Shown here: piece after piece, positions 297-18,717 of the stretch | Layout of the letters: the number at the start of each line of letters is the position of its first letter | Position numbering within the stretch: position 1 is the stretch's first letter | Assembly (NCBI RefSeq): GCF_000526495.1 | Contig: NZ_JAGE01000001.1 | Coordinates: forward strand, 62,001 to 126,000 | Length of the DNA stretch: 64,000 nt | From: Ruminiclostridium josui JCM 17888 | GTDB taxonomy: Bacteria > Bacillota > Clostridia > Acetivibrionales > DSM-1351 | Direction of reading: 5' to 3' | Notes under the pieces: generated by a model | What the model was told of the DNA's origin: nothing | What the model saw: only the letters and a program-made list of their open reading frames with translations | Database searches by the model: none | Made by a program: the position numbers and the translations under genes

Positions 297-1550
297 TTAC
301 TTCCTCAATTCTTTGAACTGTCTGCACATTTTTTGCTTAATATATATGCCACCACTCCAAACAGTAGCAATTAAAAATAGAATTAAAGCCATATAAAAGT
401 TCAAATTGTATCCGAATTGTAAAAGCAAATAATATCCAAGTAGTGGTCCTATAAAGCCTCTTATTCCTGTAAGTGTCTGGTGAAATCCCTGATAAATAAG
501 CTCGTTTTCTTTTGTAGAAAATTTTATTGTGCCTAGGTTCCATAATATACCTATCCCACTTAACCCCAATGAATAACAAGCAAGTCCCAAGTATGCATAA
601 ATTTTAGATATACTTACATCTGATAATATAAAAAACAAAGGATATAAAATTAGTATACCGAACGAGATTGCCCCAACTTTCCATATGTTTATTCTGTCAA
701 AAATTCTCCCTGCGTAAGGCATGGTCAAAATAATAAAAAGTTGTGCGTAAATGCCCTTAGCATTAGCCATTTCTACTGTAGACAGTTTTAGAACATTCAA
801 CATAAATAAGTTGACAGTAGGCATACTTATCATATATGCAAAACCATAAATCATAAATATTATCTCAAAGACAATGAAATCAGTATTTTTAAAAATTGAA
901 GTCATTGATATTTTAAAAGTTACCGGTTTAGTACCTTTCAATTCAGTGTAATCAACCTTTGATTCAATATAATAGAAAACTCCATATGTTAAAAGTGAAG
1001 CAACTGCTATTATCGATAAAATCCATTTGAACATGCTGGGGTTAAAATCTAACAATTTGCCAACAAGTAATGAGGTTATCATCATGGAGAACATAAGTAT
1101 GCTTCGTACAATACCAAAATATAATCCGCTTCTCTCTTTAAAAAAGTATGGAAAAAAGCTATTGGTTACAGGGAACTGTATTGCAAACACTGAGTGATAG
1201 AAAAAAAGAAAAACTAAATATACAGCAGAATAATTTATAACAAAACTAAATAAAAAAATAAACCTACCAATAATATACCCCCATACAAGTAGTTTTTTTT
1301 TGCTTTTACCGGAATACAATACAGTAAACAGTAGTGAAAAAATAATCGTCGCTGAAGCTATAATACTGATCACAGTTATGTCAAGGTCAGACGATTTAAG
1401 AGGGTTTTGTGCAATTTTCTCCTGTAAAAGCAAAATCCCTTGTGTTATTCCATCTGTTACTGATGAAATCATTAAAAGAATAAACATCCATTTTATTTTG
1501 TTATTATGCAAATCAGAATATTTACTACGCAAGGTACCGTACCTTTCCAT
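297..1550 (-). CDS. MFS transporter, probable exporter of the biosynthetic cluster
   Basis: A 417-residue, very hydrophobic protein with about 12 predicted membrane helices in the usual MFS 6+6 layout. Charged loops lie near residues 82-86 and in the central loop around 195-215. It is the last gene of the minus-strand biosynthetic operon, 11 bases after the GalT/HIT-like gene, so a role in exporting the cluster product is the natural inference. The substrate cannot be read from sequence. The ATG lacks a strong Shine-Dalgarno, so translational coupling to the preceding gene is possible. No convincing terminator follows before apt. Confidence 0.8.
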   Translation of the reverse strand: MERYGTLRSKYSDLHNNKIKWMFILLMISSVTDGITQGILLLQEKIAQNPLKSSDLDITVISIIASATIIFSLLFTVLYSGKSKKKLLVWGYIIGRFIFLFSFVINYSAVYLVFLFFYHSVFAIQFPVTNSFFPYFFKERSGLYFGIVRSILMFSMMITSLLVGKLLDFNPSMFKWILSIIAVASLLTYGVFYYIESKVDYTELKGTKPVTFKISMTSIFKNTDFIVFEIIFMIYGFAYMISMPTVNLFMLNVLKLSTVEMANAKGIYAQLFIILTMPYAGRIFDRINIWKVGAISFGILILYPLFFILSDVSISKIYAYLGLACYSLGLSGIGILWNLGTIKFSTKENELIYQGFHQTLTGIRGFIGPLLGYYLLLQFGYNLNFYMALILFLIATVWSGGIYIKQKMCRQFKELRK

Positions 1551-1561
1551 ATTTTTTTTAT

Positions 1562-2317
1562 TTACTTTTTAATACTATAGTATGTATTTTTAATTTCTTC
1601 AGCAATCTCATTCAACCTATTGGAAGTTTGAGGAATAGAAAAGCCAACGAATAGTGGAGAAGTTACATACCTTGGAACTATTTTACAGATAATAGATCGT
1701 TTCCATTGGTAGAAAAATAAGTTAAAGCTATTACAACGTTTAAGTAAATATTTTACGATATTTTGTATATTATCCGCCATAAAATTGTCATTGCGAGAGG
1801 TAGTAATAATATTGAATTCAGTTGAGCAAACTTTGGGTTTACTAGATATGTTTATAGAGCAACTTCCTTCTTGATAAATTTCAATTCCTTCAAAAATTTC
1901 ATCATTTAAGCCTATTTTATAATCAATATCTTTTAGTCCTACTATTTGCATATGTGAATGATTTACTGTTCCACCAGACATTGGTCCATGATTTTTATAA
2001 AAAACTACAGATTTAAAATCACCGCTTTTCTCCATTTTTAACCAATGGTTTATTCCAAATGTAATTAATTTTCTCATATGATATGTATCATACGTAGAAA
2101 TATTTTCAAAGCAATTGTTAGTTTCTATAAGTACTGTTTGAAAAGTATTAGCTAATGTTGGAAATTTGTTTTTTACCAATATTATTGAATCTTGTTCATC
2201 TATAATATCAGAAAGTGCTTCGCGATCACAAAATGGGCAGAGTGATTCTTTGCTTTGGTAAATATTCTTTTCTTTTACAACATCAGAAATAAAACAAAGA
2301 TGCTTATTAACTGTCAT
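1562..2317 (-). CDS. GalT/HIT-superfamily (DUF4931-like) nucleotidyl-transfer protein
   Basis: The 251-residue protein has a CPFC zinc-type pair (C27, C30) and a histidine triad of the form NHSHMQI (H120, H122, Q124). This resembles the HPHxQ active site of galactose-1-phosphate uridylyltransferase rather than the HxHxH of ordinary HIT hydrolases. Known GalT-fold enzymes pass a nucleotide through a covalent His-NMP intermediate. It is part of the biosynthetic operon, between the VOC gene and the MFS exporter. A role in nucleotidyl transfer to, or hydrolysis of, an intermediate (for example an acyl-adenylate or phosphorylated product) is inference. The 240-base gap upstream contains a long hairpin, so its expression may be set separately. 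Confidence 0.6.
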   Translation of the reverse strand: MTVNKHLCFISDVVKEKNIYQSKESLCPFCDREALSDIIDEQDSIILVKNKFPTLANTFQTVLIETNNCFENISTYDTYHMRKLITFGINHWLKMEKSGDFKSVVFYKNHGPMSGGTVNHSHMQIVGLKDIDYKIGLNDEIFEGIEIYQEGSCSINISSKPKVCSTEFNIITTSRNDNFMADNIQNIVKYLLKRCNSFNLFFYQWKRSIICKIVPRYVTSPLFVGFSIPQTSNRLNEIAEEIKNTYYSIKK

Positions 2318-2411
2318 GTTTACACCTACTAACTCAGAATATTTTTTAAATTAAAGTTTATATGTTAATCCGTTAATAAAATACTATTTATAGCAAAACA
2401 AACCGTATATA

Positions 2412-2479
2412 TTTAAAATTGAGCAAATCAAATACCAGTCCTTCATTGCAATGGGTATTTTTGTTTGCTCAATTTTAAA
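2412..2479. repeat. long inverted repeat (hairpin) inside the biosynthetic operon
   Basis: A perfect 16-bp arm at 2412-2427 (TTTAAAATTGAGCAAA) pairs with 2464-2479. A further inner stem pairs AAATACC (2430-2436) with GGTATTT (2454-2460). It lies between the VOC gene and the GalT-like gene. No clear U-run follows on the minus strand, so it is not a textbook terminator. It may be an mRNA processing or stability element, or a weak bidirectional terminator. Confidence 0.7.
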
Positions 2480-2557
2480 CGTAATACTATCATTTTTTAT
2501 AATAAAACTAAACTTTATACTATTTTTAAGCTATCCTTAAAAGATACTTCAAAGCGG

Positions 2558-2932
2558 TTATTTTTGCTGAAAAAACTGAACATTAAGACCATTCGGATCC
2601 TTTATAGTGAAAAATTTAGAACTAGGGGTATCAACCGGTCCACTTTGTACAGGAATGTTTTTACTTTTTACCGTATTCAGCATTGCATCAACAGAATCGA
2701 CTGCAAAACCAATAGATATAAATTCACTGAAATTAACTGCATTATTGTTACTATCCACCATAAGTTCAACTAATGTTTCATTTTCAATACCATTACCCAT
2801 AAAAGCAATTTCCATTCCAGCTCCCGCAGGAAACCTCTTTAACAGTTTAAGCCCTAATAGGTCAGAATAAAAACCAATCGATTCATCTAAACTTTTTACA
2901 TTGATTGTTGTCCACAAAAACTTCATGCTCAT
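2558..2932 (-). CDS. VOC-family (glyoxalase/bleomycin-resistance/dioxygenase fold) protein
   Basis: A 124-residue single-domain VOC protein with the typical opening (TTINVKSLDESIGFYSDLLG) and ending (FFTIKDPNGLNVQFF). These mark two paired beta-alpha-beta-beta-beta modules. VOC proteins are metalloenzymes (lyases, isomerases, dioxygenases) or drug-binding resistance proteins. It starts after an AAGGAGA ribosome site, with a second Met two codons in. It lies in the biosynthetic operon 79 bases after the PP-loop gene, so tailoring or self-resistance are both possible. The sequence alone does not choose between them. Confidence 0.75.
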   Translation of the reverse strand: MSMKFLWTTINVKSLDESIGFYSDLLGLKLLKRFPAGAGMEIAFMGNGIENETLVELMVDSNNNAVNFSEFISIGFAVDSVDAMLNTVKSKNIPVQSGPVDTPSSKFFTIKDPNGLNVQFFQQK

Positions 2933-3011
2933 TCTCCTTCATTTTAAATATTTGTAAACTTATTCCATTATATCATGGTGTACAACTACCATCAAGGCGC
3001 AAAATGCTGTT

Positions 3012-4067
3012 CTAAACCTTATTCTTTGTAAGTGGCTTGATGGAATTTAGATTAACACCTACCTCGTCAGCAAGCTTTTCCACCATGCCTTCTGGTGGAT
3101 TTAAAATTAGATCTTCTAACGCCTGTTCTCTTGTTATTTCCCCACTTCTTATGAGCTCGGCAAATTCGATATCGTAACTACAATAACCTATTTTTATTCT
3201 GTCAATATATGTATTTAGCCAATTCATTCTGCAGTTTGTAGTACGGGAAGGAAAACTATACGGTATATGTTCCCAATTAAACACTTTACGTATTTCACTT
3301 TTAAGCATCTCTTTGTCAGTCTTGTTAAATTTAAAAATGAAAAAGGGAACCACAAGAATCTTATCTAAATCTACATTTTTCTTCAAATCTTCTTTTTCAC
3401 GATAGGTTATAACTTTTGAGAGCTTTTCAAATTTTTCAACAAACTCTTCATAAAACTCCTTGTCACCGTTATTCCGTGTAATTTGGTACATTGCTTTGAG
3501 CATATTAACACCCATAACGGTATCTTTCATTACCTGGGCCTGTCCTTTTGAATACCCATTAATTACCAACTTTATCCCGTAACGCTCCGCAACTTCAACA
3601 GCACTGATAAATATAATATTGGCACACACATAACAGCTAGGAATTCCATACGCCTTGCTCTCGTGAAGATACTTCCATAACTTTTTCAAGAAAGTTGATC
3701 CCGGCTGAGTAATAACCAAGTCAACATCCAATGCTTTGCAAAGCTTCCTTGCATTATTCACTGCAGTCTCATGCTCATAGCCATTATCATTATGATAAGC
3801 CAGAGGTCTTAGGTTATACTCTTTTACCAGTTTTATCAATGTATGCGCACTATCAACGCCTCCACTGAGTGGCACTAACACATCGTATTTTTTATTAATA
3901 TTCTTATACTTCTCCAGGCAATTTTTCAATTCATTCTCAGTTTGGAAATTTACTATTGCTTCTTTTTTCTTAACCTCATCTTCCTTACAAAAATTACATA
4001 CCCCATTTTCGTCAAAACTTATTCCAGGATAGGTTTCAGGTAGTATACATTTTGTGCAAATCTTCAT
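3012..4067 (-). CDS. PP-loop ATPase, N-acetyl-sugar-amidotransferase/AANH-like
   Basis: The start is set at the ATG at 4067, which has a GGGGGAG ribosome site; an upstream in-frame ATG does not. The 351-residue protein begins with two CxxC pairs (C4/C7 and C24/C27) in the context seen in WbpG/WbuX-type N-acetyl sugar amidotransferases. It then has the PP-loop SGGVDS (68-73), which binds ATP and adenylates a carbonyl or carboxyl oxygen, and a later CYVC pair. The family amidates sugars. The wider alpha-hydrolase superfamily includes tRNA thiolases and enzymes proposed to make thioamides in closthioamide-type pathways. Placed 51 bases after a carrier-bearing A-T gene, it may amidate or thiolate a carrier-bound acyl group; that is inference. 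Confidence 0.75.
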   Translation of the reverse strand: MKICTKCILPETYPGISFDENGVCNFCKEDEVKKKEAIVNFQTENELKNCLEKYKNINKKYDVLVPLSGGVDSAHTLIKLVKEYNLRPLAYHNDNGYEHETAVNNARKLCKALDVDLVITQPGSTFLKKLWKYLHESKAYGIPSCYVCANIIFISAVEVAERYGIKLVINGYSKGQAQVMKDTVMGVNMLKAMYQITRNNGDKEFYEEFVEKFEKLSKVITYREKEDLKKNVDLDKILVVPFFIFKFNKTDKEMLKSEIRKVFNWEHIPYSFPSRTTNCRMNWLNTYIDRIKIGYCSYDIEFAELIRSGEITREQALEDLILNPPEGMVEKLADEVGVNLNSIKPLTKNKV

Positions 4068-4118
4068 TTTGCTCCCCCTTTCAATTATGCCTAAACATAG
4101 TTTCGGCATTGTCATGCA

Positions 4119-5957
4119 TTACAGTCCTTTTTCTACAATCATATGAGCCTTAGTTTCTAACTTTGTTATATCTTCGCATTGTGTCAAAAATTTCGCTAAA
4201 TTGGTTACTGATGGGTTGCTAAAGATATACGAAGCAGGAAAATCGATATCAAATAAGTCTTCGATCATGCTACAAACTAATGATACTTTAATAGAACTCG
4301 CTCCTAAGGTGAATATACTATCATTGATATCAAAATTGTTAATATCTAAAATGCTAGAGTATATGAGCGCAATGGCCTGTTCGATGATGTTGGATGAGTA
4401 AGCTCTATTTTCTTCCTTAAGCTTTTCAAGTTCACATATCAAGTTTTGGCGGTCCGTTTTTCCATTAGGAAGCTTTGGTATTTGATCTAGTTGAATAAAG
4501 CGGGCAGGGATCATGTATTCTGGAACTTTTTGCTTTAACTGTTCTCTGATAAGTGAATTTGCATCTTGCTCTTTATTATCACCTAGTACACAAAATGCAA
4601 TAAGGCTATTATCTCCTGTTTTGTCTTTTTTATAAAGAACTACCGCTTCATCTATAAAGTCTAAGTTATTTAAAATCTTTTCAATTTCAGTTAAGTTGAC
4701 TTTATGTCCATATATTTTTATCTGGTTATCTTTTCTTCCAAGATGTTCTAGAACCGATTCCTCACACCATCTCCCAAGATCTCCAGTTTTGAAAACTCTA
4801 GTCTCCAATTCATCCGGGCAATTACTTTTACTAAGTTCCTCTAATTTTCCTTGTTTCCAATACCCCTTTGCAATATATGCACTTGTTACAACTATTTCAC
4901 CAATTTCGCCGGGTTGAACCGGATTGTCCATATCATCCAACAAACTTACGTGTTTTCCAAATAACGGTGCTCCAACTGGTACTCCATCTGTGTTAATAAT
5001 AGTATTCTTGTCTATAAAATTTTGTGTAATAACACCTGCCTCGGTTATTCCATACTCTATATGTAAGCGTGCATTATCACCGAAATACTCGGTATATAGT
5101 TGTACATCTTTATTAGTAATGGCCTCACTTCCCAAGCTAACTAAGCGTAAATCCGGAAATTTGTCCCCCTCTTTCAACTCATCACATAAGTGACGAAAAA
5201 CTGTAGGTACGGAATGATACACAGAAATCGCATTATCCCTGAGATAGGAAATCAAACCTTTAATACCTTCTTTTTTTATGGAATAAGGGAATATAGTAGC
5301 TCCGCAAGCCAGAGGAGCAAATATATCTTTAATACCGGCACTAAAACTGTATGAATAAAGATATGAAAATCTATCGCAACTTTCAATTTTCAAATCTTCG
5401 CAATAAACAGTAATAACATGAAGTAAGTTTCTATGGTTATGCACCACTCCCTTAGGTTTCCCTGTAGAACCTGAAGTGTATAAAATATATGAATTATCGT
5501 CAAGTGTAACTTTTTCATTTAAATTATCTGAAGGATAATTCTCTGCGTCCCTGAGATTCAAAATTTCCATACCCATATTATTAAATTTCTTCACAAAAGG
5601 TAATTGATCATCTTCTACTAAAATTAGTTTTGCACAGGAATCTTTAACGATAGTCTCATTTGTTATATCTGGATAAGTAGGATCTAAAGGAATATAACAT
5701 AATCCACTTTTTAAAACACCTAACATAGCACTAATTTGAGATACTGGATTACTTAACAATAAAATTACACTGTTCTGATTAGCACAATTCTTTTTAATCA
5801 TATGGGCGATTTTATTGGAATACAAATCTAATTGTTTGTAAGTAACCTTATTATCCTGATAATGGATAGCACATTTATCATAATTACTTTCCACCTGACT
5901 TTGAAATAGCTTAATAAAGTTTATATTCTCGTCTCTTAATAATTTTTTTGTTAGCAT
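4119..5957 (-). CDS. stand-alone adenylation-carrier (A-T) protein, non-alpha-amino-acid type
   Basis: A 612-residue protein. The ATG at 5957 follows GAGGAGA and is preferred over a Met ten codons upstream. The A domain (about 15-510) has the P-loop YTSGSTGKPKG near residue 160, GEIGEIVV, KTGDLGRW and an A10 lysine in LPNGKTDRQ. A C-terminal carrier domain has the phosphopantetheine serine in LGASSIK (about Ser555). At core A4 the usual FDxS is FSAG, so the Asp that holds the alpha-amino group of amino acids is absent. The likely substrate is an aryl, hydroxy, keto or beta-amino acid. It could prime the C-A-T NRPS. It follows the aroQ paralogue after a gap containing a GAAA-capped hairpin. 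Confidence 0.85.
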   Translation of the reverse strand: MLTKKLLRDENINFIKLFQSQVESNYDKCAIHYQDNKVTYKQLDLYSNKIAHMIKKNCANQNSVILLLSNPVSQISAMLGVLKSGLCYIPLDPTYPDITNETIVKDSCAKLILVEDDQLPFVKKFNNMGMEILNLRDAENYPSDNLNEKVTLDDNSYILYTSGSTGKPKGVVHNHRNLLHVITVYCEDLKIESCDRFSYLYSYSFSAGIKDIFAPLACGATIFPYSIKKEGIKGLISYLRDNAISVYHSVPTVFRHLCDELKEGDKFPDLRLVSLGSEAITNKDVQLYTEYFGDNARLHIEYGITEAGVITQNFIDKNTIINTDGVPVGAPLFGKHVSLLDDMDNPVQPGEIGEIVVTSAYIAKGYWKQGKLEELSKSNCPDELETRVFKTGDLGRWCEESVLEHLGRKDNQIKIYGHKVNLTEIEKILNNLDFIDEAVVLYKKDKTGDNSLIAFCVLGDNKEQDANSLIREQLKQKVPEYMIPARFIQLDQIPKLPNGKTDRQNLICELEKLKEENRAYSSNIIEQAIALIYSSILDINNFDINDSIFTLGASSIKVSLVCSMIEDLFDIDFPASYIFSNPSVTNLAKFLTQCEDITKLETKAHMIVEKGL

Positions 5958-5991
5958 GCTAATTCTCTCCTCTTTGTTTATAAGCAAATTC

Positions 5992-6033
5992 TTACAAAGG
6001 ACAGATTGAATTTCTTCAACCTGTCCTTTGTAA
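5992..6033 (-). repeat. hairpin with GAAA tetraloop before the A-T gene
   Basis: The arms TTACAAAGGACAG (5992-6004) and CTGTCCTTTGTAA (6021-6033) pair perfectly over 13 bp. An inner 5-bp stem closes a four-base loop that reads GAAA on the minus strand. It lies in the aroQ to A-T gap and ends about 35 bases before the A-T start. No U-tract follows, so a processing or stability element is more likely than a terminator. Confidence 0.7.
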
Positions 6034-6127
6034 CCATATACATGATTTCAATTAAAACAATGGTCTCAAAACTTTAAAATCAAAATTCGCTTGACATAAA
6101 CTAATCTCACAATATTTGTTTATTCTT

Positions 6128-6556
6128 TCAAAGTTTAAGGAAATATTCTAAAGCGAGTAAGTAGCCTAACCAACCAAGACCAGTAATTACACCGACACAT
6201 GCTGGTCCAATAACATCTTGTTTACGGAAGTCGTCTCCTTTATGAACGTTACTAATGTGTACTTCTAAACAAGGTACTTGAATGCTTTCAATAGCCGACC
6301 TGAGAACATACGAATTATGAGTTAAAGCAGCCGGATTGATGATAATACCATCAAAGTTTCCCCTTGCCTTATGGAGTTCTTCGACAATTTCACCTTCATA
6401 GTTTGATTGGAAAAGTTTAACTTCCAACTCATTTTTATCTGCAAAGTCTAATATTTTTTGATTTAAATCATCTAAAGTAAAGCACCCATAAAGTGTAGGA
6501 TCTTTTTGTCCTAACAAATTCAAATTAGGCCCATTAACTACCATAATTTTTTTCAT
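6128..6556 (-). CDS. type II 3-dehydroquinate dehydratase paralogue
   Basis: At 142 residues this is a normal length for AroQ. It has GPNLNLLG, the lid tyrosine in LYG, QSNYEGE, INPAALTH and EVHISNV. The family dehydrates 3-dehydroquinate to 3-dehydroshikimate. Two family features differ: the lid arginine of the usual LGxREP is lysine here (GQKDP), and the downstream AREEFR-like segment reads KGDDFRKQ. The gene sits in the middle of the NRPS operon, 23 bases after the flavodoxin-like gene, so it is probably a pathway enzyme rather than the housekeeping copy. It may supply a shikimate-type acid to the A-T protein, or act on a related substrate. Confidence 0.8.
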   Translation of the reverse strand: MKKIMVVNGPNLNLLGQKDPTLYGCFTLDDLNQKILDFADKNELEVKLFQSNYEGEIVEELHKARGNFDGIIINPAALTHNSYVLRSAIESIQVPCLEVHISNVHKGDDFRKQDVIGPACVGVITGLGWLGYLLALEYFLKL

Positions 6557-6579
6557 AGCTTCTAGTCCTTTCTTAGATA

Positions 6580-7086
6580 TTAATTTTTGTCCCCAAATAA
6601 TTCAATCACCTTGTTGGCAATGTTTTGACCTAATTTAACACAACACTCACGATCATTGTCTATAGGTGCTTTAGTTGATATGGCCCCAAAATGTGTAAAC
6701 GGCCTTCCCAAAGACATGCCTCCGGAATAAATAAGCATTCCATGGATTAATCCTGCTGCAATGATTGACATCAATGCAAAACTTCCTCCCCCACATGGTT
6801 GGTTTTGGGAAATAAAAGCAGCACAGAGTTTTCCTGCAACATTTCCTTTCAGTTCTGTATCTAAAAAGCGTTTAATCTGCCAACAGCATGTACCATCCCA
6901 ATTTGGCGAACCAATAATTATTGCTTGGCTATCACACATAAACACCTTATCATAACTATCTAATGACATAACTCTTACTGTTATGCCCTCCATAGAACAC
7001 CCTTCAGCGATGCACTGGGCCATTTTCTCAGTATTTTTATCTTCCGAATCAGAGTGATATATTATGGATATTTTAAGTTCCTTCAT
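6580..7086 (-). CDS. flavodoxin-like / NADPH-dependent FMN reductase family protein
   Basis: A 168-residue protein of the WrbA/flavodoxin fold. It has an N-terminal phosphate-binding region (IIYHSDSEDKNTEKMAQCI), a SPNWDGT loop after the third strand, and a late QPCGGGSF segment. It would carry FMN and move electrons in the cytosol. Its ATG overlaps the last 14 bases of the NRPS gene, so translation is coupled. Several cysteines (CCW, NQPC, ECC) are unusual for a plain flavodoxin. It may reduce a carrier-bound intermediate or serve the radical-SAM-like protein of the operon; this is inferred from context only. Confidence 0.7.
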   Translation of the reverse strand: MKELKISIIYHSDSEDKNTEKMAQCIAEGCSMEGITVRVMSLDSYDKVFMCDSQAIIIGSPNWDGTCCWQIKRFLDTELKGNVAGKLCAAFISQNQPCGGGSFALMSIIAAGLIHGMLIYSGGMSLGRPFTHFGAISTKAPIDNDRECCVKLGQNIANKVIELFGDKN

Positions 7087-10000
7087 TTAGAGTCCCTTCC
7101 TTTGATACATTTTTAGATAAATATTCCGCTAGCCCTTTCAACGTTGGATATTCAAATATAGTAACTGCCGGTATCTTTTGTCCCATCAATTCACTGAGCT
7201 TGTTGGCGACGAAGACAACTACAAGAGAGTCACCACCAATATTAAAAAAGCTATCGTTTACATCTACTTCGCTTATATGTAAAAATTCTTTCCATACACT
7301 AGCAATCGCCTTTTCAACATCTGATTGAGGTTCAACATGGGTTTTGGTTTGAATAGGGAATAATGCTTCCTCAGGTAGGTTTTTTCGGTCAATTTTACCA
7401 CTAGGTGTAAGAGGCATTTTCTCGATTAGGCAGAAAGCACTTGGTATCATATAAGCAGGGAGTTTGAGGCTTAAATAATCTTTTAAATCAAATACTAAAT
7501 TCTCATTCTTAGCAGAGCGTGGAACAATATAAGCAACTAATCGGCGATCATTTGTATTATATGTTTTAGCTATTACAACCGATTGGATGACTTCTTCATG
7601 CTCATTCAAGACTGCTTCGATCTCCTCAATTTCAATCCTAAACCCTCTTATTTTCACTTGATGATCAATTCTTCCCAAGAATTCAATATTACCATCAGGT
7701 AGACGTTTTACTAAATCACCTGATTTATAAAGGGGCGCATGCGCCGACCTATTCCATGGATTATCAATGAATTTTTCTTTAGTTAACTGAGGTTTATTCA
7801 AGTAACCAGGAGATAAGCATTCTCCTCCAATTAAAAGTTCACCAGCTACACCAATTGGTACAACTTGGCAATTCTCATCTACAACGTAATATTGTGTGTT
7901 GGCGATTGGAAAACCTAGAGGGGTACAATTCAAGTCGTTATAATCGGGATTAGAGCCAACCTCATAAAACGACGAAAATACAGCTTCACTAGGTCCATAT
8001 CCATTCCAAACAGATTTAGATTTTTTTAAGAGTTCTTTTGCTAAATCAGGTGAAAGACCTTCTCCTCCTGCAAGGATTTTCAAATCTTGTTTTCCTTCCC
8101 ATCCGGACTCAACTAAAATACGATACGCTGTAGGTGTGGCACACATCATAGTTACCCCATGCTTTTCCAATGTGTTAATTAAGGCTGGCCCCAAATCTGC
8201 TTCATTGTTTCTCAAAAGAATAACCTTTGCACCGGTAATAAGCGGTAAATAAATTTCCGGTACCGACATATCAAAGGAAATGCTAGCCATGGCTAACACC
8301 ACATCATCTTTCTGTATTCCCGGTCTGCTCTTCATAGTGTATAGAAGATTACTTATCGATCTGTGTCGTATTGGAACCCCCTTGGGTTTGCCAGTAGACC
8401 CAGACGTATAGATAATATAAAACAGCTTATCTAAGTCTATACTCAAATTTAGATTACTGGTATCTTCTTTTTCAATTAACTCTCTTTGTTCATCAATCAA
8501 TATACATTGATCAATTTTAGTCAAAAATTTAGATTGATGAGTCTTTTCCGTAATAATCAAACTAATGTCTGCATCATCCAACATGTATGATATACGTTCA
8601 TCAGGATAGTTCGGATCAATCGCAATATATGGATGACCAGATTTTAATACAGCAAGTAACGCAATAATCACACTTGGGGAGCGATCAAGACAAACACCAA
8701 TTGGTATATTGGGATTAGAATTTTTTCCGCAAATAAACCTTGCTAAAGCATTAGCTCTATTGTTAAGATCTTTATAACTGATTTCTTGATCCTCAAAACA
8801 TATAGCACATCTGTCCGGTGTAAGTGCAGCCTGCTTCTCAATGAGTTCATGGATACATTCAAGCGGATATTTTTCTTCTGTATGATTCCAATTATTACAA
8901 ATGTTTTGAACTTCATCTTCTTTCATCAGTGACAACAAACCAATTTTTTGTCTCGGATTTTTGATAACATCATCAATTATATTAAAGAAACTTGATACCA
9001 TTCTCTCAATCGTAGATGAATGAAATAAACTGTCATTGTATTCAAACATACAGAATAATTCATCTGGTCTCTCGTCAAGTATAAAATTTATATCAACTTT
9101 TGACGTTCTTTGATACATTGATACCCGTTCAATTTGCATCGACTTAAAGTCAATTTGAGGTAGTCCAAAATCCCTATATACAAACTGAGTTTCATAAAAC
9201 GGATTATAGTTAGAATTTCTTTGGTTCGGCAAAACGCTCACTAATCTGTGAAATGGAAAGGAATCATGACGGTAGTCTTCTTTCAGCTTCTCCCATACAG
9301 ATTTTAGGTGTTCTTCAAATGTAGACTGACCATCAATACCGCAACGAAACACAATCATATTTACAAATATACCAAATATACCTCTGAACTCTCGTTTTGA
9401 ACGATTGAGAACAGGCACCCCCATTCCAAAGTCAGACTGCCCGCCATAACGATAAACAAGAATTTGTAAAATAGTTAAAAAAACCGCAGGCAAAGTTACC
9501 CCGTAAGATTTAGATAAATCTCTTAAGTTACTCCTTATTTCTTCTGATATGTAAAAACTATATCTTTTTCCTGAGTACGTATTTGCCTTAGGGCGTTTAT
9601 AGTCTGTAGGCAAATTACTCATAGGTAGACCTTGCAAATTCTTTTTCCAATATTCCAAATGTTGTGAATATTCTTCACTCTTTTCCCATTGTTGTAACCA
9701 ATTTACATAATCGGAATAATCAGCTTTTGCTGGCTTATTTGGAATTTCCTCATTGCATGCTAAAGCATTATAAATAGCAGATAATTCTTTAGTTAACTCA
9801 CCTAATGCGTATCCATCACAAATCATATGGTGAATTACAAATTGAAAAAGATATTCATTGTCACCTAAAATATATAATATCGCTCGACAAAGCGGGGCTT
9901 TTTCAAAATCAAAAGGAACTATAGTTTCTTGATATATCTTATTCTCAAGGAACTCATCTTTATCGGATGTAGTGATACTTCTTACATCTTCAATCCTGAG

Positions 10001-10240
10001 TTTAAAATTCTCAAGAGATTGGACTTGTTGAATTGGTATGCCGTCACGAATTATGAAACTAGATTTAAATACGCTATGCTTTTCTAAGGTTTTCATTAAA
10101 GCTTCTTCCAAAATAGAAGGATTAAGCGGACCTATGATTTTAAAAGCAAATCCTTCATTATAAAAGGATTTTGTTGGTTCTGACTGCTGAAGATTCCAAA
10201 TCATTTGTTGTGATAGTGAAAGTGGATATTCAAAACTCAT
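7073..10240 (-). CDS. nonribosomal peptide synthetase, one module (C-A-T), no thioesterase
   Basis: A 1055-residue protein that starts after a strong AAGGAGG site. Condensation domain about 1-440 with H137HMICDG143. Adenylation domain about 460-950 with YTSGSTGKPKG near 610, an intact FDMSVPE at A4, NGYGPSE at A5 and the A10 lysine in TPSGKIDRK. Carrier domain with IGGDSL (about Ser1003). Hand alignment to GrsA gives a specificity code near D-M-P-C-I-A-G-F-S plus K, which I cannot match to a known amino acid. The C domain would join an upstream acyl group, probably from the A-T protein, to this amino acid. There is no TE or reductase domain, so release must be done in trans. Confidence 0.93.
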   Translation of the reverse strand: MSFEYPLSLSQQMIWNLQQSEPTKSFYNEGFAFKIIGPLNPSILEEALMKTLEKHSVFKSSFIIRDGIPIQQVQSLENFKLRIEDVRSITTSDKDEFLENKIYQETIVPFDFEKAPLCRAILYILGDNEYLFQFVIHHMICDGYALGELTKELSAIYNALACNEEIPNKPAKADYSDYVNWLQQWEKSEEYSQHLEYWKKNLQGLPMSNLPTDYKRPKANTYSGKRYSFYISEEIRSNLRDLSKSYGVTLPAVFLTILQILVYRYGGQSDFGMGVPVLNRSKREFRGIFGIFVNMIVFRCGIDGQSTFEEHLKSVWEKLKEDYRHDSFPFHRLVSVLPNQRNSNYNPFYETQFVYRDFGLPQIDFKSMQIERVSMYQRTSKVDINFILDERPDELFCMFEYNDSLFHSSTIERMVSSFFNIIDDVIKNPRQKIGLLSLMKEDEVQNICNNWNHTEEKYPLECIHELIEKQAALTPDRCAICFEDQEISYKDLNNRANALARFICGKNSNPNIPIGVCLDRSPSVIIALLAVLKSGHPYIAIDPNYPDERISYMLDDADISLIITEKTHQSKFLTKIDQCILIDEQRELIEKEDTSNLNLSIDLDKLFYIIYTSGSTGKPKGVPIRHRSISNLLYTMKSRPGIQKDDVVLAMASISFDMSVPEIYLPLITGAKVILLRNNEADLGPALINTLEKHGVTMMCATPTAYRILVESGWEGKQDLKILAGGEGLSPDLAKELLKKSKSVWNGYGPSEAVFSSFYEVGSNPDYNDLNCTPLGFPIANTQYYVVDENCQVVPIGVAGELLIGGECLSPGYLNKPQLTKEKFIDNPWNRSAHAPLYKSGDLVKRLPDGNIEFLGRIDHQVKIRGFRIEIEEIEAVLNEHEEVIQSVVIAKTYNTNDRRLVAYIVPRSAKNENLVFDLKDYLSLKLPAYMIPSAFCLIEKMPLTPSGKIDRKNLPEEALFPIQTKTHVEPQSDVEKAIASVWKEFLHISEVDVNDSFFNIGGDSLVVVFVANKLSELMGQKIPAVTIFEYPTLKGLAEYLSKNVSKEGTLNEGT

Positions 10241-10402
10241 GGTTTACCTCCTTAAATTAATGCCTAATTCCACTTGAATTCGATAATCTATTATCTATAA
10301 CTCACTTTTATTACTTTTTACTAGTAAATTACTTGCTTTTGCTATAAAACTGCCCTCTATTCTAAGAAATGGGGCATAAATTAACATTCAAAATTCTATG
10401 CC

Positions 10403-11380
10403 TCAATCTGCACCTCTAGCCCCATGTTCTAGAATTATTTGGTGAATACTTTCACTGTTTTTATAATTTCTCTTAGATATACTTTTGATTAAAGCTAATG
10501 AATCTTTATAATAATTTTCAATTAGAATAGGAACCCACTCTTGTTCTAAATTTTTAAGACCCGAATATTTATATAGTTCTTTTTCTAATCCTTTCGGTTT
10601 TTCCAAATTTAAAAGCTGTATAAGTTCTCGAATGTTTTCTTTTACTTCGTCGTTTTTAATATCTAAGCCTTTAACATAATCTAACAAGAATTCAGTACAG
10701 GTGTTCCCACCCCCTAATCCAAATCCATTTAAAGAACCATCAACCAATTCGCATCCCGCTTTTATAGACGCTATTGTATTTGAGTGTGCCAGATCTAAAT
10801 TATCGTGAGCATGAAACCCTATCGGTTTGTTACAGTATGATTTTAAGGTTCTAATAATCTCATAAACATCATCAGGAAGTAACGCCCCCCTTGAGTCAGC
10901 TATGTAAAGTGCATCTATCAAATTAGTGCTACTGAATGAAGAAATAAAGTCGAGAAACTCATCATAATTATATTGAGTAACACTTATCAAATTTAATGAC
11001 ACCTTAATATTTGACTTTTTAACATTCTCTGCAATTACCAAAGCGTCTTGTATATTACTAAAATCGCAGGGTATTCGAACGTAACTAATATAATCTGTAA
11101 AATCAGACATTCTATTACTTACGGCTTTATTTTTAGGGGTAATCATTAGGACTAACTGTGAGTAACTAATGTTATTCTTTATTTTTTCTAAGAGCCCCAA
11201 AGCAGCTTTATAATCCATCCCCAAACAAAGCTCATTACTCAAATAACCAGTTTCAATATAGTCAACTTTGAAATCATCTAAAGAATAGCAAACTCTCTCT
11301 ATTTGATCTTTGCTAAATTGCCAATTGTTAAGGTATCCTCCATCTCTAAGACTAACATCCATAATTTTTATATTATTCAT
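10403..11380 (-). CDS. DRE-TIM metallolyase (HMGL-like aldolase, 4-hydroxy-2-oxovalerate-aldolase type)
   Basis: This 325-residue TIM-barrel protein has the N-terminal SLRDGG metal/catalytic motif, GFHAHDN (the HxH metal ligands) and the glycine loop GFGLGGGN. Family members make or break carbon-carbon bonds next to a 2-oxo acid using a divalent metal. Its ATG directly abuts the aminotransferase stop (TAGATG), so the two are translationally coupled. Together they could build and then aminate (or deaminate) an unusual building block for the NRPS. The exact reaction is not readable from sequence. Confidence 0.8.
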   Translation of the reverse strand: MNNIKIMDVSLRDGGYLNNWQFSKDQIERVCYSLDDFKVDYIETGYLSNELCLGMDYKAALGLLEKIKNNISYSQLVLMITPKNKAVSNRMSDFTDYISYVRIPCDFSNIQDALVIAENVKKSNIKVSLNLISVTQYNYDEFLDFISSFSSTNLIDALYIADSRGALLPDDVYEIIRTLKSYCNKPIGFHAHDNLDLAHSNTIASIKAGCELVDGSLNGFGLGGGNTCTEFLLDYVKGLDIKNDEVKENIRELIQLLNLEKPKGLEKELYKYSGLKNLEQEWVPILIENYYKDSLALIKSISKRNYKNSESIHQIILEHGARGAD

Positions 11381-12724
11381 CTAGCTATCCCTATTAAATT
11401 TATAAATACACCTTTTTAAACAGTTAACAATTTTCTCTATATCTTGTTTGGTAATATTTAGTGGAGGTGCAATTTTAATAACATTTTGGTTGACTCCTGA
11501 AGGATATATAAGTATGTGGTTATAAAAGGCATACTCGACAAATTCCTTTGCTAATACTCTATCCGGCTGTTTTGTAGTTTTATCAATCACATCAAAAGCA
11601 ATGGCTAAACCAATGCCACGCAAATTATCAATCCAGGATATTTCATTTAGAAAACTTAACTGGTCTAATAATAATTCTCCTAATGGCTTTACGTTTTCAA
11701 AAATACTATTTTTTTCAGCATATTCTAGCGTTCTTAAGGCTATGTATGTACCAATAGGACTATTATTAAAAGTAGCCTGAAAAGCTGTTCTTTTTGGTGA
11801 TACAGCATTAAATATCTCTTCTTTTGCTATTACTGCACTAAGTGGATAGTAACTACCTGCCAGTGACTTGGAAAGCAATGCAATGTCTGGAGTTACTCCC
11901 CAGTTATGAATGCTGTAAAGGTATCCCGCCCTTCCAACTCCAACCTGTATTTCATCATCTACCATAACTACGTCATATTTTAACGTTAATTCACGTACCG
12001 CTCGTATAAATTGATTATCAGGAATAATAAATCCATTCGCCCCTTGAACAGGTTCAATAATGAGACCTGCCGGTTTATCGGAACTTTTAAGTGCCTCCTC
12101 CAATTTATCAATACAAAAATCTGTATTAATGCCTCTGTTCATATTAGGAAAAGGAACCCGTACCACATCCTTTTTTAACGGATTATTCCCATATTGATCC
12201 GGATTAAGGAAACTATCATCAGTAACGGCTCCCGAAGCATAGTTGGAACCATGATAAGCACCATCAAAAGTCACAATTTTTTGTCTACCGGTAAACTGGC
12301 GACATAATCTGATAGCGTCACAAACTACATTGCTCCCACCAAGATTATAATATACCTTGTATATGAATTCTTCTGAAAGCTTTCGGCTCAAGTAATACGA
12401 TAGCTCTATTTGAGACTGAGTATGAAAGGAATGAATGTGGACAACAGATTCAAGTGCTTCTATTACAATTTTCTCAATTTCCGGGCATTTATGTCCAAAA
12501 TTTATTGAGCTATAGCCCATGATTAAGTCTAGGTACGGTTCGTCATCGTTCATACCCCAAACCCACATTCCCTCAGCTTTAACAGGAACCATAAAACGAT
12601 TATACATTTTTGATTCATCACAGGTACACGAATATCTGTTGTTTAATTCATAAAGACGTTGGTTATCGCTATCAGGAAAGACTGAATCTCCGTGTTCACA
12701 CGCTTGATTTTCGTTTGTTTTCAT
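11381..12724 (-). CDS. class III PLP-dependent aminotransferase
   Basis: A 447-residue aminotransferase of the acetylornithine/GABA/glutamate-1-semialdehyde fold. It has FDGAYHGS, the cofactor-binding VDDEIQVGVGRAG, and the Schiff-base lysine in LLSKSLAG. Family members act on omega-amino groups or shift amines using PLP. It starts after GGAGTTGAG and is coupled to the aldolase gene. The substrate is unknown. Given the neighbours, it probably shapes the acid or amine unit loaded by the NRPS or the A-T protein. Confidence 0.88.
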   Translation of the reverse strand: MKTNENQACEHGDSVFPDSDNQRLYELNNRYSCTCDESKMYNRFMVPVKAEGMWVWGMNDDEPYLDLIMGYSSINFGHKCPEIEKIVIEALESVVHIHSFHTQSQIELSYYLSRKLSEEFIYKVYYNLGGSNVVCDAIRLCRQFTGRQKIVTFDGAYHGSNYASGAVTDDSFLNPDQYGNNPLKKDVVRVPFPNMNRGINTDFCIDKLEEALKSSDKPAGLIIEPVQGANGFIIPDNQFIRAVRELTLKYDVVMVDDEIQVGVGRAGYLYSIHNWGVTPDIALLSKSLAGSYYPLSAVIAKEEIFNAVSPKRTAFQATFNNSPIGTYIALRTLEYAEKNSIFENVKPLGELLLDQLSFLNEISWIDNLRGIGLAIAFDVIDKTTKQPDRVLAKEFVEYAFYNHILIYPSGVNQNVIKIAPPLNITKQDIEKIVNCLKRCIYKFNRDS

Positions 12725-12748
12725 TGTCTCAACTCCATACCATCATTG

Positions 12749-12949
12749 TCATTTTGCTTTGGCATCTTTATCAGTTAATAAATCTTCACCAACTGCCCAA
12801 TAATCCCTATCTACCTCATCAAAAACAGTATATATAGTTGCTATATTCTTTCCAGCCACTCTTGCTAATGTTCCACAAAATTCTTTGGCAATTGTTTTTC
12901 TTTGTTCCCTTGTTAGCGGCCCGCCAACTTTTACATTAATATAAGGCAT
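12749..12949 (-). CDS. 4-oxalocrotonate tautomerase family protein, copy 2
   Basis: The start is the ATG at 12949 after AGGAGAG; a longer in-frame reading upstream lacks a ribosome site. The 66-residue product begins MPYINVKVGG, so removal of Met exposes the catalytic Pro1 of the tautomerase superfamily. An arginine near position 13 may match Arg11 of 4-OT, but the Arg39 equivalent is not evident (TIYTVFDEV). Its protein is identical to that of the gene just upstream. Such enzymes move a proton between keto and enol forms, or act as Pro1-dependent lyases. Confidence 0.85.
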   Translation of the reverse strand: MPYINVKVGGPLTREQRKTIAKEFCGTLARVAGKNIATIYTVFDEVDRDYWAVGEDLLTDKDAKAK

Positions 12950-12992
12950 GAATTCTCTCCTCCAGTATCCTATTTTAAAATCATTGTAATAA

Positions 12993-13193
12993 TTATTTTG
13001 CTTTCGCATCTTTATCAGTTAATAAATCTTCACCAACTGCCCAATAATCCCTATCTACCTCATCAAAAACAGTATATATAGTTGCTATATTCTTTCCAGC
13101 CACTCTTGCTAATGTTCCACAAAATTCTTTGGCAATTGTTTTTCTTTGTTCCCTTGTTAGCGGCCCGCCAACTTTCACATTAATATAAGGCAT
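12993..13193 (-). CDS. 4-oxalocrotonate tautomerase family protein, copy 1
   Basis: A 66-residue protein with N-terminal Pro1 after Met, identical in amino acids to the next gene (copy 2). It begins after an AGGAGAG site identical to that of copy 2. It follows the methyltransferase across a gap that contains a 16-bp hairpin. 4-OT family proteins assemble as hexamers from 60-70-residue subunits; two identical genes would raise dosage without making a heteromer. Confidence 0.85.
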   Translation of the reverse strand: MPYINVKVGGPLTREQRKTIAKEFCGTLARVAGKNIATIYTVFDEVDRDYWAVGEDLLTDKDAKAK

Positions 13194-13245
13194 AAATTCT
13201 CTCCTCCAAAATTCTATTTATAATCTTGATAATATAAGAGCGGCG

Positions 13246-13291
13246 TGCAATTACTATAAATTTTAGTTTAATTATATTTATAGTAATTGCA
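13246..13291. repeat. 16-bp inverted repeat upstream of the tautomerase genes
   Basis: TGCAATTACTATAAAT (13246-13261) pairs perfectly with 13276-13291 around a 14-base loop. It lies between the methyltransferase and the first tautomerase gene and has no U-tract on either side. It is the third long AT-rich hairpin within this operon. Confidence 0.7.
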
Positions 13292-13378
13292 GTATTGATT
13301 ACACATTCAAGCCTGTGCTTCGCTCTATATTTGCAAATCTGATTTTCTACTTACTGAATTTTACGTTTATTACCTAAA

Positions 13379-14344
13379 CTATTTAGTTATTGCTGATATA
13401 AAATGTGCATGTTCATATGCACAATATCTATCTGCGCGCTCCTGAAAAAATTTCTGTTGAATATCATGTGGAGCCAAATTCTCCCTAACATTCAAACCTA
13501 TTGATTCAAGTTCCTTAGTAATTTCAGATGGTTTAAATCCTGTTATCCAAGGTTCACCTTGTTGCTGACGAATCCTCAATCCGATTTGTACAACCTCAGA
13601 GGTCTTCTCAGGATTAAATATGTCTTCATGGACATAATCAAATACAATAGTACTACCTGCCGGTGCAATCTTGGCAATGCCAGACAAAGTATTATACACT
13701 GTATCACGGGGCAAGAAGTATGTCACACCCAACCAGCTAAAAAAACTTGGAGCCTGAGGGTCATATGAAGATTTAGCAAGAGCTGTATTCAGACTTTCTT
13801 TCATAAAATCAATGGGAACAAAATGTAGTTGTTCAGGTATATTCCAACCCAATTCTTCAATACGCTGGCGCTTATATTCCTGCATGTCCGGATGATCAAC
13901 CTCAAATACCTGTAAGTTTTTTAACATTGATGACCTCCGGAAAGCAAATGTATCCAATCCAGCACCTAAAATTACGTATTGACGTACACCTTGTTCCACA
14001 GCTTGCTCAAGCTTGTCTTCTGTAAACCGCGCCCGGCTTACCGGAAGGGATAAAGGCGAGTAACCCTGCATAGCCATAGCCAACGCAGATGCCTTATCGG
14101 TAATCTGTGTAGCACCCGGGAAGCCTAAATGCTCTAAAAACCAAAGAATCCGAGGATTTGTATATTGTTGCTCGTAGTATGTACATACATCTTTCCCTAT
14201 TATTTGAAAAGCCAGATTATCATCAAATATCTTTGGTGAATCACATGTAGCATGATAGCCACGCAAATAAGCCACAAATAGAGCTGTTGCCGTTGCATTC
14301 ATTTTCTTTTCTATCAAAATCACCCCGTCTACATACAAATTCAA
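13379..14344 (-). CDS. class I SAM-dependent methyltransferase, LCMT/PPM-like family
   Basis: A protein of up to 321 residues related to the leucine-carboxyl-methyltransferase-like family used in many secondary-metabolite clusters. The SAM-binding loop is VILGAGLDTFAFR, with the acidic residue in FEVDHPDMQ and a later FDYVHED. Members methylate carboxyl or hydroxyl oxygens. The start is uncertain: the upstream ATG at 14344 has no clear ribosome site, while an internal TTG or the ATG of MNATATAL follows GGGGTGA. It is the second gene of the biosynthetic operon, 28 bases after the radical-SAM-like gene. Confidence 0.8.
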   Translation of the reverse strand: MNLYVDGVILIEKKMNATATALFVAYLRGYHATCDSPKIFDDNLAFQIIGKDVCTYYEQQYTNPRILWFLEHLGFPGATQITDKASALAMAMQGYSPLSLPVSRARFTEDKLEQAVEQGVRQYVILGAGLDTFAFRRSSMLKNLQVFEVDHPDMQEYKRQRIEELGWNIPEQLHFVPIDFMKESLNTALAKSSYDPQAPSFFSWLGVTYFLPRDTVYNTLSGIAKIAPAGSTIVFDYVHEDIFNPEKTSEVVQIGLRIRQQQGEPWITGFKPSEITKELESIGLNVRENLAPHDIQQKFFQERADRYCAYEHAHFISAITK

Positions 14345-14372
14345 AATACTACTGGACTTCTATGTGCTATCC

Positions 14373-15704
14373 TCAGGGACAAACATCACAAGCTGCGTAT
14401 TTACTATTAATTTCTTTAGCTATCTCTATTGACTTCTCACTGTTCATTTGTTGTAAATAACTTTTTAGTCCGGCACCACCGCCAAGTTCAACCGCCAAGC
14501 TATAATATTCGTCGCCAATCCACTTGGATCCGGCACTTATAATAATTTTATGTTTAGCATTAACTACTAACGAAAATGTTACAAGTGTCTTAAATATAGT
14601 AAAACTATCTATTACTTTATCTCTTTTTACGCAGGGCAGTGAAAACGCATTAAACCAACCAATTGATTCATCAATAATATCCTGCAATGGAACATAAACA
14701 TTAAATGGTGATGAATTAATTTTGTAAATTTTATCAAGCTCTTTAAATGTAAGATATAATAATATTCTGTCTTCAGGGATTTCATCATCACCGTAAAAGA
14801 ACATACCGCCTGAGCAAATACCTATTTTATTTGTGAGTGCTGCGGTTAATGTCGTTAGCCTTTTTTGATATTCAGTTGCACTGTCAGTACTTATTCCTTG
14901 ACCATTATTTTCACCGCTGTTATTTGCAATACTTGATAGGTACAGGGCATTATAATAAGAAGTCTCTAAGTTATGGTTTATTCTAGTTACTCCTGCGTCT
15001 CTCGCCATAACTATTTGTTCCTCGTTCAAGCTTCCTACTGAGGCACACATCGGAAAATCTTTTATTTTTTCATCTGCTCTAGTCCTTTTTACTGCTTCCA
15101 GTATTACATCTAACACCTCATTTGTAGGCTTATGAGAGGTGGTAATTAACTTAAGATTAGTTGCGTATTCTGTAGCTAGTTTTATCTCTTTCGTATATTC
15201 GTCTGCTGTAGTTATATTTCCGAGCATTTGTTCTGCAATACTTGGCTCGTTATCCTTTCTTGATGCAAATAGACAGGATCCGTACGCTCCGTAAGCACAT
15301 GGTTCCATACAAGTTGTAAATCCATAAATAGATTTACATAGTCTCATTTTTTCTTCATCTTGCTCGTTTCGACGTTTTGCAATTATTTTTGCCAGCTGTA
15401 CTAAGCACTCTTTCGTTTCACTAGGGGCATATTCCAAAGTAACAATATCATTTATGGAAACCTCTTCTCCACTTTCCACTTTTTTTGATAAATCTTTGAA
15501 GAATACATCCCAGTCAATACTTATTGCCCTTTTCTTCAATGAACTCTTAATTTCTGTAATTTTATCTGCAGTTGTTTTTATACTAGCTTCATTTTTATCC
15601 ATATAACTTTTTTCTAAATTTTGATATTCATTAAAAAGTTCTTGTGGATATATCTCCTTTGCATGTTGTTTAATGCTATCCATCACTTTGTTAAAAATAT
15701 CCAT
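14373..15704 (-). CDS. biotin-synthase-like radical SAM homologue with displaced cysteine motif
   Basis: A 443-residue protein, first in the operon, with a strong AGGGAGG site. Similarity to BioB-type barrels is clear in INHNLETS (BioB NHNLDTS), in YQKRLTTL and in GICSGGMFF (BioB CSGG). Where BioB has CxxxCxxC, this protein has C132-MEP-C136-AYGAYGS-C144: the third cysteine is a glycine and another Cys lies five residues on, giving CX3CX7C. Extra cysteines lie at C123 and in a C-terminal CDVC. About 120 residues precede the motif. It may bind a 4Fe-4S cluster with new spacing, or have lost radical chemistry. The likely role is C-H activation or sulfur/carbon insertion in the pathway; this is inferred. 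Confidence 0.65.
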   Translation of the reverse strand: MDIFNKVMDSIKQHAKEIYPQELFNEYQNLEKSYMDKNEASIKTTADKITEIKSSLKKRAISIDWDVFFKDLSKKVESGEEVSINDIVTLEYAPSETKECLVQLAKIIAKRRNEQDEEKMRLCKSIYGFTTCMEPCAYGAYGSCLFASRKDNEPSIAEQMLGNITTADEYTKEIKLATEYATNLKLITTSHKPTNEVLDVILEAVKRTRADEKIKDFPMCASVGSLNEEQIVMARDAGVTRINHNLETSYYNALYLSSIANNSGENNGQGISTDSATEYQKRLTTLTAALTNKIGICSGGMFFYGDDEIPEDRILLYLTFKELDKIYKINSSPFNVYVPLQDIIDESIGWFNAFSLPCVKRDKVIDSFTIFKTLVTFSLVVNAKHKIIISAGSKWIGDEYYSLAVELGGGAGLKSYLQQMNSEKSIEIAKEINSKYAACDVCP

Positions 15705-15763
15705 ATTTTCCTCCCTGATAAAAAATTGATATATATTTAGTATTTTTACTAATCATTGGTACT

Positions 15764-15792
15764 ATTATATAACATTTACCATGAATAAGCAA
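15764..15792 (-). promoter_or_regulatory. sigma-A promoter of the biosynthetic operon
   Basis: Read on the minus strand: TTGCTT (15787-15792), a 17-base spacer, then TATAAT (15764-15769). Transcription would start near 15757, about 50 bases before the radical-SAM-like gene. No comparable promoter was seen before most of the later genes. Confidence 0.7.
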
Positions 15793-18705: not shown

Positions 18706-18717
18706 ATTTTCCTCCGT

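Follow-up and report, generated by a model that had tools for sequence, protein, structure and literature searches.

An inserted 17-gene block in Ruminiclostridium josui with nonribosomal peptide synthetase, CtaC-like and BioB-like genes: a candidate cluster for a small sulfur-containing product

Introduction

Closthioamide, the product of the cta cluster of Ruminiclostridium cellulolyticum, was as of 2019 the one bacterial nonribosomal peptide with a thioamide that had been identified (PMC6772006). The same source states that CtaC thioamidates a carrier-bound substrate, with an activity that drops when its adenosine triphosphate (ATP) or iron-sulfur (Fe-S) residues are mutated, and that many CtaC homologues, in a survey set of 100, are located near nonribosomal peptide synthetase (NRPS) genes in anaerobes (PMC6772006). 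Regarding biotin synthase (BioB), residues C97, C128, C188 and R260 hold the sulfur-donating cluster, and anaerobe-type BioBs use a different cluster (PMC11099021). In this work, we describe a block of genes encoding proteins related to both systems, located in the cellulose-degrader-type clostridium Ruminiclostridium josui JCM 17888, with a genome of 4.47 Mb in two contigs. The window, i.e., the whole stretch of DNA that was analysed, comprises 64,000 nucleotides (positions 62,001 to 126,000 of contig NZ_JAGE01000001.1); coordinates refer to this window unless otherwise indicated, and all block genes and hairpins discussed lie on its minus strand.

The gene content of the block, its insertion, the order of its domains, and the retained and lost catalytic residues of its enzymes were observed directly. 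The block is a real and intact biosynthetic cluster, probably acquired recently and horizontally, and we consider the chances about even that it directs the synthesis of an acyl-amino-acid-sized, sulfur-containing product, probably a thioamide.

Insertion site and gene content

Positions 1-22500 of the window were compared by blastn with the apt loci of four relatives (G002, G005, G007 and G009), out of six loci inspected. Matches ended at 163-181 in all four; in G002 they restarted at 22142, in recJ, and in the other three at 19993-20017. Approximately 19.8 kb are extra at this spot (block 181-20000, between apt and a GH43 gene), holding 17 genes: a run of 14 plus etfB, etfA and an acyl-CoA dehydrogenase gene (acd). 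In G007 and G009 a GH43-like gene is found within about 250 bases after the housekeeping gene apt, in G005 one additional secreted-protein gene separates the two, and in G002 apt adjoins recJ, as it does by eye in G004 and G001. Among the listed open reading frames (ORFs) of the window, none was noticed that encodes an integrase or transposase, nor is there a transfer RNA near the block as an integration site, the only one in the window being at 49669. Since the guanine-cytosine content of the block equals that of its surroundings (0.342 and 0.346), the case for acquisition is made by the empty sites and not by composition. Positions 1-22000 gave no Rfam match at gathering scores.

Gene families were assigned by Pfam/NCBIfam, and an ORF check found the 14 genes of the run (297-15704) intact and on one strand, encoding one condensation, two adenylation and two carrier domains. 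The 14 genes, families and single strand listed in a preliminary description of this DNA were thereby borne out. Its functional block holds as far as these genes go, and its extent does not: the etfB-etfA-acd trio upstream sits within the same insertion, and the functional block therefore probably begins at etfB (19521).

PP-loop enzyme

The AANH/PP-loop enzyme (3012-4115), WbuX-like and 42-52% identical to its nearest relatives found, shows the residues on which CtaC depends. Its SGGVDS motif aligns with D77/S78 of CtaC, and C161 and C164 (within CYVC) and C295 align with the Fe-S cysteines C154, C157 and C284; a protein of G002 carries exactly D77, S78, C154, C157 and C284 of CtaC, the residues named in PMC6772006, and G002 is accordingly taken to be R. 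cellulolyticum. The preliminary description had offered no characterised relative for this enzyme, and CtaC is one. Its setting is one of carrier proteins, with the adenylation-thiolation (A-T) gene directly upstream and the condensation-adenylation-thiolation (C-A-T) gene in the same run. The nearest relatives are found in an NRPS/polyketide synthase (PKS) locus of G002, in an NRPS fusion of G040, and, on the second contig of the source genome, in a ketosynthase locus; in the tree, the window enzyme groups with G002_2836k and G040, and CtaC with G003 and G035_C4.

The WbuX model (TIGR03573) scored the enzyme at 172.2 bits (171.9 in the genome-wide model search), below its cut-off of 203.2. 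Across 148 genomes (genome counts include the own genome throughout, plasmid and contig collections excepted), this model gave 28 matches in 16 genomes, 6 above and 22 below the cut-off. NRPS/PKS sequence was present within 1.5 kb of none of the 6 and of 14 of the 22; the reference proteins for this test came from the window, L031, L032 and L034, and the window's own locus, one of the 14, matches by construction. Above the cut-off, 1 of the 6 proteins has the cysteine triad. Below it, 15 of 16 aligned rows do, and the remaining row (G000_C2) is in a wrong frame, its protein showing the triad in a separate CtaC alignment; unaligned were 6 of the 28 matches, namely 4 of 26 loci without an SGGxD[S/A] frame together with L129 and L130. 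On this evidence, we assign the enzyme to a thiotemplate-associated AANH group, for which thioamidation is the best precedent, short of proof. No HisH/HisF, which we take to be the ammonia-supplying partner of WbuX, or other glutaminase was found among the 17 genes in the Pfam/NCBIfam scans.

Other AANH genes were observed along the way. The second CtaC-like PP-loop gene of the source genome, 44% identical, lies on contig 2 (469850-481547; L034:7851-19548), in a locus whose other genes, judged by eye, include one resembling asparagine synthase, a HemN-like radical S-adenosylmethionine (SAM) gene and three ketosynthase-like genes, with two FMN-reductase-like genes beside it (4995-7792 of L034). 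A third AANH gene, on contig 1 (1072710-1078304; L043:6711-12305), is found by eye near ThiF-like, carrier-protein and ketosynthase genes. In G040 (L033:7020-12140), a PP-loop enzyme forms the C-terminus of an NRPS protein, a natural link between a carrier domain and AANH.

Assembly line

In the C-A-T protein (7073-10240), identified by Pfam and alignment as was the A-T protein (4119-5987; possible ATG start at 5957), the condensation motif HHMICDG (HHxxxDG) is intact and the carrier motif is GGDS; the carrier serine of A-T lies in GASS. The position that binds the alpha-amine (Asp235) holds Asp in C-A-T (ISFDMSVPE) and Ser in A-T (YSFSAGIKD), and both LgrA domains carry Asp at the latter position in a phmmer alignment. 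Given this Ser versus Asp difference, the probable substrate of the A-T protein is an acid that lacks a free alpha-amine, and that of the C-A-T protein is an amino acid. The remaining pocket residues, read by eye with what we take to be the GrsA numbering, gave no confident substrate. Pfam scans of both proteins found neither a thioesterase nor a reductase release domain, in agreement with the preliminary description, which had also counted one condensation and two adenylation domains; its suggestion that the product is very small and that the novelty resides mainly in tailoring is consistent with what was tested. A terminal release domain is absent from some NRPSs.

The source genome is NRPS-rich, with 34 matches on both contigs and 33 condensation-domain matches above the Pfam cut-off. 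Many of the latter lie at 2.78-2.87 Mb, where a paralogue of the block's DRE-TIM protein is also found (2825612-2826430, 27% identical).

BioB-like protein

The BioB-like protein (14373-15704, 443 residues) has no Pfam match and scores 74.3 bits on TIGR00433, far under the cut-off of 225; radical SAM proteins of the genus other than BioB reach up to 90 bits, and such a score is therefore not distinctive by itself. The model gave 41 matches in 11 genomes of the genus, and 14 of the 40 others were used for tree and alignment. In the tree, the protein groups on a long branch with three BioBs (support 0.98), versus 11 other radical SAM proteins that we take, by motif, to be HydE-like/HydG-like. 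A direct search at E<=1e-6 of the loci behind 40 of these 41 matches (the one at C1:1445936 of the own genome being left out) retrieved, besides the protein itself, only the three true BioBs, 23-28% identical to it, and no orthologs were found among those 40.

The SAM-cluster motif, the alteration of which had escaped the preliminary description, reads CMEPC-AYGAYGS-C, i.e., CX3CX7C (C132, C136 and C144), versus CX3CX2C in 14 of 14 compared proteins, and its DNA contains a 9-base near-repeat. C220 and C297 align with C128 and C188 of Escherichia coli BioB, with a chain offset of 23 that we infer, and C123 aligns with a cysteine preceding the motif in two of the three genus BioBs. Known from one sequence only, CX3CX7C may be a new working motif or a product of decay. 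A predicted structure of the protein alone was uninformative (mean predicted local distance difference test score of 36). An identity as the missing biotin synthase of this organism was considered and rejected: its genome has no BioB above the TIGR00433 cut-off, and the window protein is far below it too.

Other genes of the block

Upstream of the run are found an EtfB-like electron-transfer flavoprotein gene (18718-19521; PF01012; NF040731 293.8 bits, cut-off 445), an EtfA-like gene with an N-terminal ferredoxin domain (17512-18705; ETF, ETF_alpha, Fer4), and the acyl-CoA dehydrogenase-like gene assigned by family scans (16113-17309). The best model of the latter is acryloyl-CoA reductase (294.6 bits, cut-off 640), and it also matches the prolyl-carrier-protein dehydrogenase RedW (210.3 bits, cut-off 650). 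Among the 11 genomes of the genus, own included, the only other match at E<=1e-60 is in G002, 69% identical and at a different place. That locus (L080:2779-14156) holds by eye chorismate-mutase-like, LeuC/LeuD-like, DRE-TIM synthase, acyl-CoA synthetase, carrier-protein and ketosynthase-III-like genes and another PP-loop-like gene, and has the appearance of a pathway to an aromatic or branched starter unit.

The BioB-like gene is followed by that of an LCM-family SAM methyltransferase (13379-14344, possible ATG start at 14302; PF04072; TIGR00027 180.7 bits, above cut-off) and by two 4-oxalocrotonate tautomerase-like copies (PF01361), the first with Pro after Met (12993-13193) and the second with its true start at 12949 (12749-12949). 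The copies are identical at 198 of 201 bases and have the same GGAGGAGAGAATT ahead of both ATGs; given this identity, their tandem duplication, ribosome-binding site included (12749-13193), must be very recent. The next enzyme has a class III aminotransferase fold dependent on pyridoxal phosphate (PLP) (11381-12724; PF00202, Aminotran_3, 254.6 bits) and could be a transaminase or an amino-acid racemase; its best solved relative is an amino-acid racemase, and transamination is therefore not certain. The DRE-TIM aldolase-like (HMGL-like) protein (10403-11380; Pfam) resembles 4-hydroxy-2-oxovalerate aldolases and its nearest solved relative 3dxi, a putative aldolase. A nikkomycin-type aldolase may provide a precedent for the formation of a 4-hydroxy-2-oxo acid; a literature search for it yielded no paper. 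A flavodoxin/WrbA-like protein (6580-7086) would be a fitting electron donor for the BioB-like enzyme. At the end of the run are a VOC (glyoxalase-like) protein (2558-2932), a DUF4931 (GalT/HIT-like) protein (1562-2317) and an MFS transporter, probably an exporter (297-1550), all assigned, as the flavodoxin, by Pfam/NCBIfam.

The AroQ paralogue (DHquinase_II, 6128-6556) scores 187.2 bits on TIGR01088, above the cut-off of 169.85, and retains most AroQ active-site residues. It has Lys in place of the catalytic Arg of the flexible loop (presumably R19 in Mycobacterium tuberculosis numbering), an Arg present in the other 14 aligned sequences, and Gly in place of a second conserved Arg. The source genome has a separate second AroQ, closer to those of other genus members. 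G005, G007 and G009 each carry a second AroQ with different active-site changes (Lys for what we take to be His81, and 'WH' for 'FR'), and since these are found by eye in PKS/NRPS or carrier-protein loci, recruitment of AroQ copies into loci of this kind seems to have happened more than once in the genus. By eye, these paralogues with Lys for the catalytic His (L058, L059 and L060, from G009, G007 and G005, respectively) are near carrier-protein genes, which are accompanied by NRPS/PKS-like genes in G007 and G005, and adjoin oxidoreductase and HAD-like genes.

Transcription

A promoter scan of positions 1-19999 found 100 sites versus 91.8 expected (standard deviation, sd, 9.0), and terminator-like sites numbered 16 versus 9.0 expected (sd 3.2). 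Two hairpins stand out at gene junctions: one of 15 bp, terminator-like, between acd and the BioB-like gene (15979-16014, z -6.3), and a perfect one of 19 bp between aroQ and the A-T gene (5992-6033, z -7.1). Most junctions across the 17 genes are tight, several overlapping or having gaps of 0-28 bases; the larger gaps measure 202, 408, 185, 162, 140, 79 and 240 bases, the last five being inside the run. The single operon behind one good promoter of the preliminary description is thus not supported, given promoter matches at chance level, the 19-bp hairpin and gaps of 79-240 bases; judging from the sequence, a single transcript for the run is possible.

Search for related clusters

The BioB-like protein was found at E<=1e-12 in 1 of 398 phylum genomes, its own, and in none of the other 397. 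Against plasmids it gave 71 weak records, none covering 80% of the query; among the best 15 of these 71, 12 are annotated as bioB, one as bioA, and two have no feature. The DRE-TIM protein matched in 31 of 148 genomes at E<=1e-15, with 24-31% identity apart from the window, and in 42 plasmid records, with 23-33% identity among the best 15; viral contigs had no match. The C-A-T protein has no close relative in the contig collection, its five loci there being 23-30% identical and from unrelated taxa. The PP-loop enzyme was found in 3 of 58 order genomes at E<=1e-40, in 2 of 341 class genomes at E<=1e-60, in 1 of 398 phylum genomes at E<=1e-50 with a four-row alignment (A1), and in no plasmid at E<=1e-20.

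A gene order shared with related clostridia, raised in the preliminary description as a sign of a functional unit, was looked for, and no orthologous cluster appeared; the site is empty in 4 of the 4 relatives compared. Among the titles and abstract openings searched, none names a cluster of this kind, and the statement that no known pathway matches is borne out within the genomes and literature searched.

Discussion

We propose a pathway in which every reaction, the order of the reactions and a release without thioesterase are predictions. Loading of an acid that has no alpha-amine free would fall to the A-T protein; the C-A-T protein would load an amino acid and join both into an acyl-aminoacyl thioester on its own carrier domain. 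One building block would probably arise through the DRE-TIM aldolase, the tautomerases and the class III PLP enzyme, first as a 2-oxo-4-hydroxy acid and then as an amino acid, to be modified by the AroQ-like protein, the acyl-CoA dehydrogenase/Etf system and the methyltransferase. The PP-loop enzyme, with ATP and an Fe-S cluster, would swap a carbonyl oxygen for sulfur on the carrier-bound substrate, in the way known from CtaC and closthioamide. With the flavodoxin as its reductant, the BioB-like enzyme would perform a second step, of the radical type and possibly also inserting sulfur, and the MFS protein would export the product. A small, probably sulfur-containing product class is a reasoned guess, and the exact structure is beyond prediction.

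Several observations weigh against this proposal. The PP-loop enzyme is only 24% identical to CtaC and lies on a separate branch, and 8 of the 22 loci below the WbuX cut-off, including that of CtaC and that on the second contig of the source genome, are without NRPS/PKS sequence within 1.5 kb. A bona fide WbuX-type protein of G026, with HisH/HisF-like neighbours by eye, also has the cysteine triad, which is therefore not diagnostic. The BioB-like protein breaks the CX3CX2C rule and could be inactive, and it lacks the C97 equivalent of type I BioB, there being no Cys between C144 and C220. Furthermore, the genomes searched hold no orthologous cluster, and both hairpins speak against one transcript.

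Part of this evidence would fit a cluster of the same NRPS kind in which the PP-loop enzyme is WbuX-like, using ATP activation to introduce nitrogen as an amide or amidine, so that no sulfur is needed from this step. The closest curated family is indeed the N-acetyl sugar amidotransferase TIGR03573, at 172 bits, and the asparagine-synthase-like gene that by eye adjoins the relative on the second contig is a possible ammonia source; however, the score stays below 203.2, the 17 genes include no HisH/HisF or other glutaminase, and the enzyme has the Fe-S triad that 5 of the 6 proteins above the cut-off lack, so that we regard nitrogen transfer as possible, if on the improbable side. The altered SAM-cluster spacing with its 9-base near-repeat, and the two conserved Arg lost from the AroQ paralogue, could instead mean that both proteins are degenerate, so that an ordinary acyl amino acid would be made and part of the tailoring set would be a relic. 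Yet all reading frames are intact, and the two sulfur-donor Cys of BioB and most active-site residues of AroQ are retained, making such decay quite unlikely. Still less credit is due to the view that the run is a set of short, unrelated transcripts of mixed origin sharing a strand by chance: the hairpins, the gaps of up to 408 bases and the chance-level promoter matches would agree with it, but a single insertion contains all 17 genes, neighbouring genes overlap or are 0-28 bases apart at several junctions, and NRPS and modifying-enzyme genes alternate along the run.

With its 17 genes, the cluster is a compact candidate for a further bacterial nonribosomal peptide carrying a thioamide. The BioB-like protein is, in addition, a direct test case for whether the sulfur insertion of biotin synthase has been recruited to secondary metabolism and for the capacity of a CX3CX7C motif to hold a radical SAM cluster. 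A bolder version, which we hold to be unlikely, is that this protein is the first biotin-synthase-type enzyme of an NRPS pathway, a CX3CX7C radical SAM protein whose target for sulfur insertion is an unactivated carbon in a small metabolite, perhaps one bound to a carrier. Working next to a CtaC-type thioamide synthetase, it would bring to two the sulfurs installed by enzymes in the product. To our knowledge, both a biotin-synthase-type enzyme in an NRPS pathway and the CX3CX7C motif would be new.

The locus is of a known general kind, an NRPS with a CtaC-type AANH enzyme, and its combination of genes was not found elsewhere in the genomes searched. With the cta cluster of R. cellulolyticum, apparently of the same genus, it shares the ATP/Fe-S residues of CtaC, an aminotransferase gene and a carrier-protein logic. 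The cta pathway differs in being NRPS-independent and leading to a symmetric polythioamide (PMC6772006), and no BioB-like, DRE-TIM, AroQ or tautomerase genes were noticed by eye among the cta ORFs. Many of the CtaC homologues surveyed in that source likewise place an AANH gene beside an NRPS in an anaerobe (PMC6772006). With the TIGR03573 (WbuX) proteins, the window enzyme has in common the PP-loop family and N-terminal CxxC pairs, and it differs in its below-cut-off score, the lack of HisH/HisF and its NRPS setting. The L080 locus of G002 resembles the block in its 69% identical acyl-CoA dehydrogenase, found by eye near DRE-TIM synthase, acyl-CoA synthetase and carrier-protein genes, and differs in that neither a condensation domain nor a BioB-like gene was seen there by eye. 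Finally, the BioB-like protein is similar to BioB in its tree position, its C128/C188 equivalents and the extra Cys before the motif seen in two of three genus BioBs, and departs from it in its CX3CX7C motif, its greater length of 443 residues with an N-terminal extension, and its score of 74 bits against a cut-off of 225.

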